Shown piece by piece: positions 10,735 to 27,304 of a stretch of DNA of 64,000 nt (the first letter of the stretch is position 1; every line of letters starts with the position of its first letter). Under the pieces are notes generated by a model that did not search any database, was not told where the DNA came from, and worked only from the letters and a program-made list of their open reading frames with translations. A program made the translations under genes and the position numbers. Source of the stretch: Pseudoalteromonas sp. MM1 (GTDB lineage: Bacteria > Pseudomonadota > Gammaproteobacteria > Enterobacterales > Alteromonadaceae); assembly GCF_030296835.1 (NCBI RefSeq), contig NZ_AP027922.1, positions 744,001-808,000 of the forward strand, given 5' to 3'.

Positions 10735-10810
<76 letters not shown>

Positions 10811-10834
10811 TTTATTTTAGTAATTTGAAAAGGG

Positions 10835-10888
10835 AACTGTAATCAGTAGTCTGTTCAAGTTACCCGTCGACTCGGTTAGTCGGCACCA
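10835..10888 (+). pseudogene. Truncated tRNA-Thr remnant
   Basis: This segment repeats the 3' half of the adjacent tRNA-Thr: part of the anticodon arm (AACTGTAATCAGTAG), then a T-arm and acceptor end (CTCGGTTAGTCGGCACCA). It lacks the 5' acceptor strand and D-arm, and the variable and T-stem region is scrambled. It cannot fold as a tRNA and is best explained as debris of unequal recombination in the array. Confidence 0.85.
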
Positions 10889-10934
10889 TTTATTTAAATT
10901 AAATGTTTTAAACATTTAATCGCACAGTTTAAGT

Positions 10935-11010
10935 GCCTCGATAGCTCAGTTGGTAGAGCAGAGGATTGAAAATCCTCGTGTCCCTGGTTCGATTCCGGGT
11001 CGAGGCACCA
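10935..11010 (+). tRNA. tRNA-Phe (GAA), copy 2
   Basis: A 76-base cloverleaf identical to copy 1, with anticodon GAA and encoded CCA. It is followed by a different spacer that again ends in the GTGCCTTAGCACAC motif before the next tRNA-Thr. Confidence 0.98.
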
Positions 11011-11067
11011 TTCAATTTAAGTTCTCAATCTTTAAAATTGAACGTGCCTTAGCACACGCTTTAGTGT

Positions 11068-11143
<76 letters not shown>

Positions 11144-11196
11144 TTTATTTTAGTTAAAGGTTTGAATATATAGCCTTTAGCTGGCACTGCTTAAGT

Positions 11197-11272
11197 GCCT
11201 CGATAGCTCAGTTGGTAGAGCAGAGGATTGAAAATCCTCGTGTCCCTGGTTCGATTCCGGGTCGAGGCACCA
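11197..11272 (+). tRNA. tRNA-Phe (GAA), copy 3
   Basis: The third identical 76-base tRNA-Phe, last gene of the operon. Its CCA end is 11 bases before the terminator stem. Confidence 0.98.
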
Positions 11273-23457: not shown

Positions 23458-24657
23458 TTATAAATTTGCTTGAGCTTCTTTCACCATATCTTGTAGTGCA
23501 TCAATTAACAGTGGATCTCTGGAGTTTTGTTTAGCAAGTTCTAATGCGTGTTTCATGCTAGTAACAGCCTCTTTAAACTGTTTATCGGCCGTGTAGCCTT
23601 GCGATAACCGCATGTGGGAGTAAGCAGCATTAGGGTAATCACGCGTAAAGTGTTTAAGCGTAGTTATCGCTTTTTTAGTGTTACCAAATTTTTGCTGTCG
23701 ATGAGCAAATTCTACGTACACATCTTGTGGAATTTTAAGCTCAAAACCGTACTTATCACTCAGTGCTTGGTAGTAACCGGTAATAAGCGATACATCAGCA
23801 AATTTTCCGTGCTCGTCAGTCACTTTAAATATTAGGTCGCTAAATAGGTTAATTAGGCTATCGCTGAGGGCTGGTAGTATGGTGCCCATATGAGTAAATG
23901 TAGGGTAATGCTTATATTCCCATTTTAGCTGCGTAGGCATTTGTTGTTCTAAATTTACTAACGTATTTAATACACCGGTATAAAAACGTGACCCTTCACT
24001 TGCTACACTAATAAATAACTCTTGAGCGCCTTTAGGGTTTTTAGTGTATTTAATAATATTATTTTTTAACTCTTCGTCACTCCACCAACTATTTGGGCTA
24101 ATAGCTATGTAGTTGTTAAATAATTCCGGCTGATTAACTAAAGTATAAAGCGCCAATGTACCCGCATTAGAGTGACCAATTAATGTAGTGTAGCCGTTAG
24201 TTGAGTAGTTAGAGTTTATGTATGGCATGAGTTCGTCAGACACAAAATTTAAAAAATTGTCGGTTTGCCCAGCGTCAGGCCACTTATTTTTTACAAAGGT
24301 TTGAAACTCAGTTTTTGGCTCACCTTGTACTTTAGGTAAATAATCACGAACACGGTTAGTTGTATCCACACCAACAAGCATGGCATTAGGTATCTGCTCG
24401 TAATCAACAAGGGATTTTATAACGCCAGATGCTGTATGAAAGTGCTCAACACCATCAAGTAAATAAATAACATAAAGCGGTTGATCGTCTTTTACAGTGT
24501 CAGGTATGAAAATTCTGATGGGCCTATCTTCATTAAGTATTTTTGATTGTAGAATGACTTTTTTACCAACGGTTATATCGGTTGTAGCGGTGTCTGCGTG
24601 GCTTAAAAAAGAGGTACTAAAAGTAAGTGCAAATACAAGCGGTAGTAGGAGCTTCAT
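23458..24657 (-). CDS. Secreted alpha/beta-hydrolase esterase (IroE/BesA-like) with C-terminal TPR
   Basis: A 399-residue protein with a cleavable signal peptide (about 1-21, ending SHADT). It has a putative-esterase (PF00756-type) domain: YVIYLLDGVEHFH, then the nucleophile elbow LIGHSNAGTLALYT, with a late His in KHYPTFTHMG. Residues about 305-395 form two or three TPR-like helices (FAHRQQKFGNTKKAITTLKHF, SQGYTADKQFKEAVTSMKHALEL). Relatives include siderophore-lactone esterases and esterase D-like enzymes; the substrate is unknown here. The esterase-plus-TPR build is frequent in marine gammaproteobacteria. Repeat-rich spacers lie on both sides. Confidence 0.82.
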   Translation of the reverse strand: MKLLLPLVFALTFSTSFLSHADTATTDITVGKKVILQSKILNEDRPIRIFIPDTVKDDQPLYVIYLLDGVEHFHTASGVIKSLVDYEQIPNAMLVGVDTTNRVRDYLPKVQGEPKTEFQTFVKNKWPDAGQTDNFLNFVSDELMPYINSNYSTNGYTTLIGHSNAGTLALYTLVNQPELFNNYIAISPNSWWSDEELKNNIIKYTKNPKGAQELFISVASEGSRFYTGVLNTLVNLEQQMPTQLKWEYKHYPTFTHMGTILPALSDSLINLFSDLIFKVTDEHGKFADVSLITGYYQALSDKYGFELKIPQDVYVEFAHRQQKFGNTKKAITTLKHFTRDYPNAAYSHMRLSQGYTADKQFKEAVTSMKHALELAKQNSRDPLLIDALQDMVKEAQANL

Positions 24658-24756
24658 AAATATCCTTATTAAATAATGTGTTGCTCAATAATTGCACGGC
24701 TTTAGGTTTGAGTAAATGTTTATATTTTAGGCGCAAATGGAGGGGTAAGTAATTAA

Positions 24757-24810
24757 AAGCTGCGCTTTTTACGCAAGCAAGCTTTGCGTATCTACACGCA
24801 AACCCAATGT
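24757..24810. repeat. Diverged copy of the repeat at 23308
   Basis: AAAAGCTGCGCTTTTTACGC and the following AAGCAAGCTTTGCGTATCTACACGC align with AAAAGCAACGTTTTTTCCGC and AAGTAAGCTTAGCGTCTACATGC at 23308-23355. The two copies bracket the esterase gene in the same orientation. Confidence 0.5.
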
Positions 24811-24862
24811 ATTTATCGTAATTCTGCTTGTTGATATAAAGCGGACGCATACTAATATCACC

Positions 24863-24993
24863 CTGATAGCTGATAGCTGATAGCTGATAGCTGATAGCTG
24901 ATAGCTGATAGCTGATAGCTGATAGCTGATAGCTGATAGCTGATAGCTGATAGCTGATAGCTGATAGCTGATAGCTGATAGCTGATAGCTGAT
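24863..24993. repeat. Heptanucleotide tandem repeat (CTGATAG)n, about 18.7 copies
   Basis: A perfect 7-bp unit, CTGATAG, runs without interruption from 24863 to 24993 (131 bases). It lies between the esterase start (24657) and the rpsF promoter (25018), entirely outside genes. Read on the minus strand the repeat (CTATCAG) has no stop codon in any frame, while the plus strand meets TGA or TAG. A single related GCTATCAGCT lies at 23231. Such arrays vary in copy number by strand slippage. Confidence 0.97.
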
Positions 24994-25017
24994 TTATTAA
25001 AGCTTAAAAAAACCTGC

Positions 25018-25046
25018 TTGCTTAATTATCCATCTAAGCGTAAAAT
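25018..25046 (+). promoter_or_regulatory. Promoter of the rpsF-priB-rpsR-rplI operon
   Basis: TTGCTT at 25018-25023 and TAAAAT at 25041-25046 with an exact 17-base spacer, followed by a GC-rich GCGCGCTC discriminator as in growth-rate-controlled promoters. It lies only 25 bases downstream of the heptanucleotide array, which therefore occupies the UP-element and activator region. Confidence 0.8.
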
Positions 25047-25138
25047 GCGCGCTCATTTCGGCTTTTACACTATTAATTCCTTGCCTTAAACCGACCGGCC
25101 GAAACGGTAGAAGGCTCTATTAACCGTAAGGAATATCC

Positions 25139-25480
25139 ATGCGTCATTACGAAATCGTATTCATGGTTCACCCTGATCAGAGTGAGCAAGTATCTGGTAT
25201 GATCGAACGTTATACTGGTTCTATCACTGAAGCGGGTGGTACTATCCACCGTCTTGAAGACTGGGGCCGTCGTCAACTGGCTTACCCAATCAACAAGCTT
25301 CACAAAGCTCATTATGTTCTTATGAACGTTGAAGCACCTACTGAAGTAATCAGCGAGCTAGAAACTACTTTCCGCTACAACGATGCAGTGCTTCGTAACT
25401 TAGTTATGCGTACTAAAAATGCAGTAACTGAAGCGTCTCCTCTTGCAAGAGAAGAGAAGAAAGAAGCACCAGCTGCTTAA
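25139..25480 (+). CDS. rpsF: 30S ribosomal protein S6
   Basis: A 113-residue protein with the S6 core ([64 protein letters not shown]) and a charged tail ending EEKKEAPAA in place of the Glu-modified tail of E. coli. It binds S18 on the 30S platform. AAGGA precedes the start. It is the first gene of the conserved S6-PriB-S18-L9 operon. Confidence 0.98.
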
Positions 25481-25523
25481 TTGTTTTGAGTCCTAGCATG
25501 GCACGTAGTCAGCAGTTAGTGTA

Positions 25524-25841
25524 ATGGTTAGCCCATATATGAATCAGCTGGTTATATCGGGGGTTGTTTGTAAAACACCCAAGTTTAGCCAAAGCCCTGC
25601 AGGCATACCGCATTGTATTTTTGTTGTAGAACATAAATCGATGCAAACCGAAGCAGATCTTAACCGTAATAGTTACGTTAGGCTTCAGGTTGTTGCCAGT
25701 GGTAAGCAAATGCAACAACAGACTCAACATTTGCACGTTGGGCAGGCATTGCAAGTGAGTGGTTTTTTAAATCGCCACGAAGGTCGTAACGGCCTTAGCC
25801 AATTGGTTTTGCATGCTCAGCATATAGAAAGAATTATTTGA
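25524..25841 (+). CDS. priB: Primosomal replication protein N (PriB)
   Basis: A 105-residue single-stranded-DNA-binding OB-fold protein: LVISGVVCKTPKFSQSPAGIPHCIFVVEHKS, then GQALQVSGFLNRHEGRNGLSQLVLHAQHIE. PriB helps PriA restart replication forks. Its place between rpsF and rpsR is the standard gammaproteobacterial order. The start is uncertain: 25524 (MVSPYMNQ) or 25539 (MNQLVISG), which aligns better with the E. coli N-terminus. Neither has a strong ribosome site, suggesting coupling to rpsF translation. Confidence 0.93.
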   Translation: MVSPYMNQLVISGVVCKTPKFSQSPAGIPHCIFVVEHKSMQTEADLNRNSYVRLQVVASGKQMQQQTQHLHVGQALQVSGFLNRHEGRNGLSQLVLHAQHIERII

Positions 25842-25853
25842 GGAATTAATCTC

Positions 25854-26081
25854 ATGGCACGTTATTTCAGACGTCGTAAGTTCTGCCGCTTTAAAGCGGA
25901 AGGCGTACAACAAATCGATTACAAAGATCTAGCTACTCTTAGAAACTATGTTACAGAAAGTGGCAAAATCGTACCTAGCCGTATTACAGGTACTAGCGCT
26001 AAATACCAGCGCCAGCTAGCAACTGCTATTAAGCGTGCTCGCTACTTAGCCCTTCTTCCATACACTGACTTACATAAGTAA
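25854..26081 (+). CDS. rpsR: 30S ribosomal protein S18
   Basis: A 75-residue basic protein with the S18 signature ([63 protein letters not shown]). Length and sequence are almost invariant in the family. GAGGAAT is upstream of the ATG. It pairs with S6. Confidence 0.99.
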
Positions 26082-26116
26082 GCAGCGGATTAACAGTTTT
26101 TAAAAGGTGTAGAAAC

Positions 26117-26569
26117 ATGCAAGTTATTCTACTAGATAAGATCGCTAACCTAGGTGGCCTAGGTGACCAGGTTGTTGTTAAATCTGGCTTCGCACGTAAC
26201 TTCCTTTTCCCGCAAGGTAAGGCAGTTCCTGCAACTAAAGCAAACATTGAAACGTTTGATGCTCGTCGCGCAGACTTAGAAGCGAAAATCGCTGAACAGT
26301 TAACTGCAGCACAAGCACGCGCTGACAAACTAGAAGCATTAGCAGAAGTTACTTTAGTATCTAAAGCTGGTGACGAAGGTAAGCTATTCGGTTCAATCGG
26401 TACTCGTGACATCGCTGACGCTATCTCAGCTGTTGGTGTTGAAGTTGCTAAATCAGAAGTTCGTTTACCTCTAGGTACTATCCGTGAGACTGGCGAATTT
26501 GACGTTGCAATCGCAGTACACTCAGACGTAACAGCTACTATTAAAGTAATCGTTATTGCTGAAGCTTAA
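26117..26569 (+). CDS. rplI: 50S ribosomal protein L9
   Basis: A 150-residue protein with the L9 N-terminal domain ([36 protein letters not shown]), a long helix and a C-terminal domain ([16 protein letters not shown]). It is the last gene of the ribosomal operon, followed by a strong terminator. Confidence 0.99.
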
Positions 26570-26584
26570 TTTTTAATTAAGCCC

Positions 26585-26614
26585 AAAAAGCCGTGCTTTT
26601 AGCGCGGCTTTTTT
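26585..26614 (+). terminator. Terminator after rplI
   Basis: AAAGCCGTGC pairs with GCGCGGCTTT around TTTTA (one G-T pair) and is followed by six T residues. Confidence 0.92.
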
Positions 26615-26755
26615 GTATCTAAAATTCTTCTCTAATACTTCTTTATAAAATTATTTCACTATTTTTATTCTTTGTTTAAACCTTTTTTGCCTGTCTTTGC
26701 GTCTTACTTATCAATAAACTAAAAACATAAAAATAACTAAAAGGCGACGTCACGG

Positions 26756-27304
26756 ATGTTACACGTTAAACCCGAAAACGCACCCATGTGCGAAGCTGCA
26801 TTAATTGAGCAGGTTAAGTCGGGCGACCAAAGTGCATACAAAGCGCTCTATGAGCTGCATATAAAGCGTGTATACGGTTTATGTTTGCGCTTACTGGCCG
26901 ATGAAGCGCACGCTGAAGATGCCGCCCAAGAAGTGTTTGTGCAGGTGTGGCATAAAATAGCGCAGTTTGACGGCCGCTCACAATTCTCTACTTGGTTACA
27001 TAGCGTAGCAAGCAACATTGCGATTAGTTATGTACGCAAGCACAAAAGCTGGTTAAACAAAGTAGTGAGCATAGAGCAAAGCGGTATGGATGAGCAAAGC
27101 GCACAAAGCTGTAAGGGCCTCAATGGGCTCGATAAACTAATAGTTCGTTTGCCAGAGCGTGCCCGTATGGTGTTTGTTTTATATGCCATTGAAGGCTACC
27201 GCCACGAAGAAATAGCCAAGCAATTAGGTATGGCTGTGGGGTCAAGTAAGTCCCAATACCATAGAGCAAGGCAGTTATTACAAGAGTGGTACGAGTATGA
27301 GTAA
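26756..27304 (+). CDS. ECF-type RNA polymerase sigma factor
   Basis: A 182-residue group 4 sigma factor: region 2 (YKALYELHIKRVYGLCLRLLADEAHAEDAAQEVFVQVWHKI, then STWLHSVASNIAISYVRK) and region 4 with helix-turn-helix (LPERARMVFVLYAIEGYRHEEIAKQLGMAVGSSKSQYHRARQLL). It overlaps the next gene by 8 bases. The downstream products are a single-span membrane protein in the usual anti-sigma position and a DUF4097-like protein, so this resembles a cell-envelope signalling operon. The inducing signal is unknown. Confidence 0.9.
   Translation: MLHVKPENAPMCEAALIEQVKSGDQSAYKALYELHIKRVYGLCLRLLADEAHAEDAAQEVFVQVWHKIAQFDGRSQFSTWLHSVASNIAISYVRKHKSWLNKVVSIEQSGMDEQSAQSCKGLNGLDKLIVRLPERARMVFVLYAIEGYRHEEIAKQLGMAVGSSKSQYHRARQLLQEWYEYE

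Follow-up and report, generated by a model that had tools for sequence, protein, structure and literature searches.

The window, that is, the whole stretch of 64,000 nucleotides that was analysed, lies at C1:744001-808000 in a genome of 4.49 Mb that consists of two contigs. The top-scoring perfect array found in it by Tandem Repeats Finder consists of CTGATAG units (period 7, 18.7 copies, 100% match, score 262), and it is located between a divergent esterase gene and the rpsF operon (Table 1). These data agree with the original prediction, in which 18 to 19 perfect CTGATAG units were proposed, and the predicted operon (S6, PriB/SSB-like protein, S18 and L9) and esterase (PF00756) were borne out by domain matches. 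The span of 24863 to 25046 given in that prediction was right at its start, while the array stops at 24993; the rpsF promoter was read at 25018-25046, and hence the predicted end was that of the promoter. The array was also correctly placed just upstream of this promoter, although its distance to the -35 element is 24 bp and not 25 bp. An Rfam scan of positions 24000-27000 matched no family, and a plasmid nearest-match search with this region of the window matched nothing. Elsewhere in the window, tandem tRNA-Thr(TGT)/tRNA-Phe(GAA) pairs at 10735-11272 are visible as a 129-bp repeat.

Table 1. Features around the heptanucleotide array (positions in the window)
Feature	Position	Strand	Basis or remark
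Divergent esterase	23458..24657	-	PF00756; array about 205 bp upstream of the esterase start
Solo heptamer array, 18.7 perfect CTGATAG units	24863..24993	+	Tandem Repeats Finder and own-genome family
A/T-rich spacer between array and -35, possible UP element	24994..25017	+	UP-element role suggested by position
Putative rpsF promoter, TTGCTT-17-TAAAAT	25018..25046	+	Pattern in 82/99 species; function suggested by position and conservation
rpsF, ribosomal protein S6	25139..25480	+	PF01250
priB (SSB-like)	25524..25841	+	PF22657
rpsR, ribosomal protein S18	25854..26081	+	PF01084
rplI, ribosomal protein L9	26117..26569	+	PF01281, PF03948

The sequence that we take to be the rpsF promoter, as judged from its position and conservation, has the -35 element that was originally described as good, but this element, TTGCTT, matches the consensus in just 3 of 6 bases, and the whole pattern was not among the promoters listed by a promoter consensus scan. 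The same pattern was found in 72 of 85 Pseudoalteromonas species without an array at this site and in 10 of 14 species with one. The array is placed beyond the A/T-rich stretch adjoining the -35 element, and in the 10 array-bearing species in which the pattern was found the length of this stretch is 24-39 bp.

The rpsF regions were compared in 99 genomes (98 and the window genome), one per species, of which 94 had at least 300 bp of upstream sequence. Heptamer arrays of at least three copies were present upstream of rpsF in 14 species, and their units differed, being CTGATAG in G000, G008, G026, G030 and G092, CCCGAAA or CCCCGAA in G081, G046, G020, G068 and G049, and CTGAACC or CCTGAAT in G002, G062, G016 and G066. 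The near end of the array was located 137-160 bp from the start codon in all 14 species, while the 652 other gene starts of these stretches had no heptamer array; they are an imperfect control, as many of them are intra-operon starts with little room. The 85 species scored as array-less include G037, G070, G085 and G090 with less than 300 bp of upstream sequence, and the G037 contig starts inside CTGATAG units at this site despite its score. By parsimony, six changes on a tree of the 99 genomes are required to explain the rpsF array. The recurrence of arrays near the same distance, their absence from the control starts and the six changes on the tree together point to rpsF as a favoured or protected site.

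The array belongs to a family that is dispersed in the genome and in the genus. At least three perfect CTGATAG units were found at 101 forward and 34 reverse places in the whole genome, while the same pattern read backwards, used as a control, gave 0 forward and 0 reverse places, which excludes chance as the source of the CTGATAG array. Eight clean arrays with 6, 8, 11, 12, 18, 21, 26 and 49 full units were found in the genome, and the arrays other than that in the window adjoin unrelated genes. Beyond these, C1:565035-565173 contains a degenerate array, and a short match is located at C1:884209. The CTGATAG pattern was present in 31 of the 99 genus genomes. The 49-unit array (L039:5310-5804, C1:534.3-534.8 kb) lies within an open frame of the minus strand, the translation of which consists of LSAISYQ repeats, one residue off the LSVISYQ ORFs reported by MacGregor (2015), whose matches include 12 from Pseudoalteromonas (PMC4679880).

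At the orthologous rpsF site of close relatives 18.7, 10.3 and 1.4 CTGATAG units were counted, which supports the originally predicted ability of the array to change its length; the genome with about 1.4 units, G015, has 100% identity to the window across the rpsF query. With head-to-tail 7-bp units beyond chance and copy-number change between related genomes, the array has the properties of a heptanucleotide simple sequence repeat. Seven array sites were compared with relatives, and for some of them no spanning orthologue was found. The sites orthologous to C1:2824197 contain 8, 9, 6 and about 1.6 units in different species, and those orthologous to C1:3196093 contain 26, 7 and 9 units. At C1:2344597, CTGATAG x6 in the window genome is replaced by CAGCTTA x3 in G015 and by CAGCTTA x10 in G008, and the CAGCTTA unit occurs in the flank. 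Relatives with just 1.4-2 units at orthologous places are G015 and G019 at rpsF, and G007 and G037 at other sites. Hence, at fixed sites the copy number, and even the unit, vary, while the period of seven remains constant.

The window genome contains two PF05635/TIGR02436 genes, at C1:557725 and C1:565262, neither of which is at the window array, and the degenerate CTGATAG array at C1:565035-565173 lies 79 bp upstream of such a gene. One of the four-helix-bundle proteins of this genome is 99% identical to a protein in a named Pseudoalteromonas record, which points to this genus for the window genome. Genes of the PF05635 family, which encode four-helix-bundle proteins and include those of 23S rRNA intervening sequences, scored above the cut-off in 32 of the 99 genus genomes. 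Among 50 Pseudoalteromonas PF05635 genes, 41 had a period-7 array of at least three copies within 350 bp, located upstream in 26 of 50 and downstream in 34 of 46, and the unit differed from gene to gene. The bracketing was restricted to a period of seven, because control periods 5, 6 and 8-12 gave 0 or 1 array per side; period 4 was set aside, since three copies of it make only 12 bp and it is also frequent elsewhere (4 and 3 beside the genus genes, 9 and 9 near and 40 far at 80 named loci, and 38 of 99 rpsF sites). This set covers 50 of 53 full-length places, with G049:495670 and G075:C310 not fetched and four duplicate loci removed, and it leaves out the array-containing locus L076, where the motif used for finding the ORF is missing. 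In one locus (L087, G049:C1:473626) the four-helix-bundle gene is followed by AACCTAG x80, a spacer and TGATAGC x9. Broken fragments of the gene were seen in G025, G068, G086 and G092, which suggests gene decay.

The same concentration of heptamer arrays was observed in the class Gammaproteobacteria. Around 54 PF05635 genes, 43 heptamer arrays were found in 26.8 kb at 0-250 bp from the gene, or 1.6 per kb; the density was 0.19 per kb at 250-500 bp and fell to 0.05-0.11 per kb between 0.5 and 8 kb. Control periods 5, 6 and 8 gave 2, 1 and 1 arrays at 0-250 bp, and no peak was seen for periods 5-6 and 8-12. When an equal rule was applied to all genes of the same stretches, an array was near 31 of 54 PF05635 genes versus 28 of 367 other genes at 250 bp, and near 32 of 54 versus 32 of 353 at 350 bp. 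The 54 genes were taken from 75 listed places, after exclusion of the two of the window genome, fragments, weak places and the second copy in G222.

Heptamer-bracketed PF05635 genes were met in Gammaproteobacteria, Cyanobacteria, Verrucomicrobia, Bacteroidota, Planctomycetes and Clostridia. Among 80 named loci, including 10 from Pseudoalteromonas that are partly shared with the 50-gene set, 30 had a heptamer array, as did 24 of the 70 outside Pseudoalteromonas (Verrucomicrobia, Bacteroidales, Planctomycetes and Clostridia among them). This proportion, and the 9 of 50 genus genes that have none, indicate that in many cases the arms are missing or have degenerated beyond detection. On plasmids (18 of 21 records, with three Riemerella records left out) 13 of 18 PF05635 genes had heptamer arrays at a looser threshold of 2.5 copies, all 13 of them cyanobacterial, while control periods 6 and 8 gave 1 and 2. 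The settings of the gene on cyanobacterial plasmids include the gaps between cas6 and cas4 and between two ribonucleotide reductase genes; for the gene located between cas10 and a cmr3 gene, the array test was negative. Three loci of these plasmids (L422, L424 and L428) have four-helix-bundle genes within CRISPR-Cas clusters (cas10-cmr3 and cas6-cas4), which could be mistaken for cas-associated genes. When the four-helix-bundle protein was searched against phages, no match was obtained.

To compare the two arms of each element, 32 arm pairs were reduced to 24 distinct ones. The data showed that upstream and downstream units matched at 5.6 of 7 positions when one was inverted, as compared to 3.8 in direct orientation and 3.9 after permutation (0 of 20,000 permutations). 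The exceptions were L091, L272 and L147, which matched better directly, and one pair that tied. Because the units of the second array approximate the reverse complement of those of the first, the two arms of a transcript can pair into a stem, which leaves the ORF as its loop. The predicted arm-arm RNA duplex had an energy of -39.5 kcal/mol, versus -16.5 kcal/mol for permuted pairs (0 of 300), and the single element that was folded whole with both arms gave a z of -6.05 (n=1). The unit of the window array, read as TAGCTGA, forms the right arm in L073, L079-L081, L086 and L090, and it is also one unit in the mixed left arm of the genome's own element at C1:565262.

Sites that are otherwise nearly identical differ in having or lacking a whole heptamer-armed unit. 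On Nostoc plasmids, an element is located at one junction of an operon in L429 and L430, and at the next junction in the related L420, so that each is the empty site of the other, with few ambiguous border bases. The gap between the ribosomal protein S9 and Rieske genes, which were identified as its flanks in G012, contains CTGATAG x40 in that genome and a GGTTCAA-armed four-helix-bundle element in G020 and G081, as well as in G046 and G049 by flank matches.

Versions without a gene were observed as well. At four unrelated loci in three genomes (G000, G012 and G025, the window's genome among them), a module of about 90 bp that carries no gene precedes a CTGATAG array, and one of these loci is common to G000 and G012. 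In L217 (G025:2012386) an insertion-sequence-like stretch separates the module from the CTGATAG array. In G001, AGCCGTC x5 is located three bases from CTGATAG x26. Two gene-less two-armed forms lie upstream of rpsF itself, in G092 and G030, where a CCGTCAG arm is followed by a short spacer and a CTGATAG arm, and the G030 form shares 51 identical bp with sequence adjoining a four-helix-bundle gene of G030.

We consider it moderately probable that the window array is a solo heptamer array of variable length, similar in kind to those that serve as arms in small mobile elements resembling intervening sequences. In its complete form, such an element consists of a heptamer array, a leader mostly of 10-115 bp, a four-helix-bundle ORF (PF05635/TIGR02436) and a second heptamer array, and the window array would be the one-armed extreme of a series from two-armed to solo forms. 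It may descend from a heptamer-armed element or have been seeded by one, its length would then be altered by replication slippage, and it probably plays no regulatory role for rpsF, occupying a tolerated place just outside the promoter. This is near to the neutral array that was named as the simple alternative in the original prediction, to which the genome- and genus-wide family tied to four-helix-bundle elements was invisible. The window array is not a complete element, as it has one arm only and no PF05635/TIGR02436 ORF; a trace of a lost part is absent from the window, and the two-armed forms at the rpsF site are those of the other species G092 and G030. There are, however, observations that weigh against a solo arm. 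The window array has no partner arm, and its left flank matched no element. Arrays are also near 28 of 367 other genes, arms are missing at many PF05635 loci (24 of 70 pass, and 9 of 50 have none), and G002, G016 and G066 have rpsF arrays while their genomes are without a four-helix-bundle gene.

Some of the same data would be expected if the array had been born purely locally, from a chance seed of 1.4-2 units upstream of the promoter that was expanded via 7-nt polymerase slippage with no element involved. The orthologous sites with such short seeds, and the difference between CTGATAG x6 and CAGCTTA x10 at a site where the latter unit is found in the flank, fit this explanation, as do reports that heptamers are the most abundant or over-represented longer simple sequence repeats in many bacterial genomes (PMC4679880; PMC4692102). 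On the other hand, local birth is opposed by the marked concentration of heptamer arrays near PF05635 genes, by the gene-less two-armed modules at unrelated loci and at rpsF of other species, and by the recurrence of the CTGATAG unit in 31 of 99 species, and we regard it as unlikely, if still a serious competitor. A much lower probability is given to the originally predicted phase variation, in which rpsF or the esterase would be switched by the length of the array. The near-constant distance to rpsF in 14 of 99 species, the empty control starts and the six changes on the tree speak for some such function. However, the array starts at least 24 bp upstream of the -35 element, so that its length leaves the core promoter spacing unaffected. 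The retention of the promoter in most array-less species, together with the variation of copy number between species, further makes phase variation of rpsF unlikely; moreover, the units differ between clades, which leaves no shared binding site, and the other arrays of the genome adjoin unrelated genes. Hence, this claim of the original prediction was not upheld, and the switch appears quite improbable.

The orientation of the arrays raised the further explanation that they are polar marks of the chromosome, which guide replication, repair or segregation, or that one orientation alone expands to long arrays. Of 37 clean arrays on nine main chromosomes, 34 had CTGATAG on the leading strand, and the CTGATAG strand as RNA folds into a long hairpin (z -7.3) while its complement does not (z -1.9). 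The 37 arrays, however, include orthologues and were chosen as at least 40 bp long and 98% identical, with gene direction uncontrolled, and among the 24 excluded matches, which were shorter or degenerate, just 7 were leading and 17 opposite. A DNA hairpin was ruled out as the cause of polarity, because both strands fold alike as DNA. We regard polar marks as very improbable.

A trans effect of the PF05635 gene on the array burden was also considered. CTGATAG arrays and the four-helix-bundle gene co-occur, as the gene was present in 25 of 31 array-bearing versus 7 of 68 other genomes (Fisher 7.5e-12), and array places were more numerous in gene-bearing genomes (Mann-Whitney p 0.017). When phylogeny was controlled for, 10 pairs gave about 2.4 differences in the same direction, 0.2 in the opposite one and 7.4 without difference (median p 0.5). 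Hence, the strong raw association is not independent on the tree, and a trans-acting role of the protein is not claimed here but only put forward as a hypothesis. A class-wide scan for TCAGYTA x4 gave 3 of 321 genomes, including the window's own, and the other two, one with and one without PF05635, were too few for comparison.

One of the closest known counterparts of the proposed solo arm and its parent elements is the 23S rRNA intervening sequence (IVS) with an S23p ORF, such as that of Coxiella burnetii. It is located within the 23S rRNA gene, its RNA is cut by RNase III, an S23p ORF lies in the stem of its terminal inverted repeats, and two or three tandem GACAGAT heptamers, in strain-dependent number, are found just upstream of the ORF (PMC4990558). 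The elements described here resemble this IVS in the S23p/PF05635-type ORF, the terminal inverted repeats and the heptamers upstream of the ORF, while they differ from it in their location between protein genes, in their often long heptamer arms and in the existence of gene-less and solo forms. The window array itself is not inserted in a 23S rRNA gene but lies between two protein genes. In the open-licence papers that were searched, PF05635 or four-helix-bundle genes were tied to heptamer arrays only in the Coxiella IVS. The Avd protein of diversity-generating retroelements has been said to resemble PF05635 proteins (4DWL versus 2GSC) (PMC10053308), and the four-helix-bundle protein alignment obtained here also matches 2gsc; in contrast to those retroelements, the elements here are described as one-gene units.

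Intergenic heptamers were reported previously as repeats in their own right. The TAACTGA direct repeats of Beggiatoaceae, Cyanobacteria and Bacteroidetes, which also occur near ribosomal protein genes and for which a role in translational regulation was suggested (MacGregor 2015, PMC4679880), are likewise intergenic and one base off TAGCTGA. Heptameric G-rich repeats of Xanthomonas and Nostoc form intergenic arrays, the length and sequence of which vary between close species (PMC4692102), and cyanobacterial short tandem repeats were the subject of a 1990 paper cited there. The terms four helix, four-helix and S23 are absent from the text of PMC4679880, as are four helix and intervening from that of PMC4692102.

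These data suggest a possible wider connection, which we propose tentatively and with rather more doubt than confidence. PF05635 proteins could define a class of minimal mobile elements that is widespread but has gone unrecognised, made of one gene and inverted heptamer arrays, in which the 7-nt period is set by the protein or its partner. The classic bacterial heptanucleotide repeats, including the rpsF array, could be the arms, seeds or leftovers of these elements. Among the longer repeats of bacteria, seven is the favoured unit length, for which contact with the polymerase is the sole guess offered in the relevant parts of two papers (PMC4679880; PMC4692102), while the cited account of the Coxiella IVS describes the PF05635-type S23p proteins as having no known function (PMC4990558). 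The association observed here would connect the favoured heptamer length with the function of S23p proteins, and a heptamer-armed one-gene unit that is present or absent between genes offers a setting in which this connection can be tested. For the rpsF locus, the idea of a phase-variable ribosomal operon would be replaced by that of a mobile-element footprint, which has repeatedly settled just outside one promoter.
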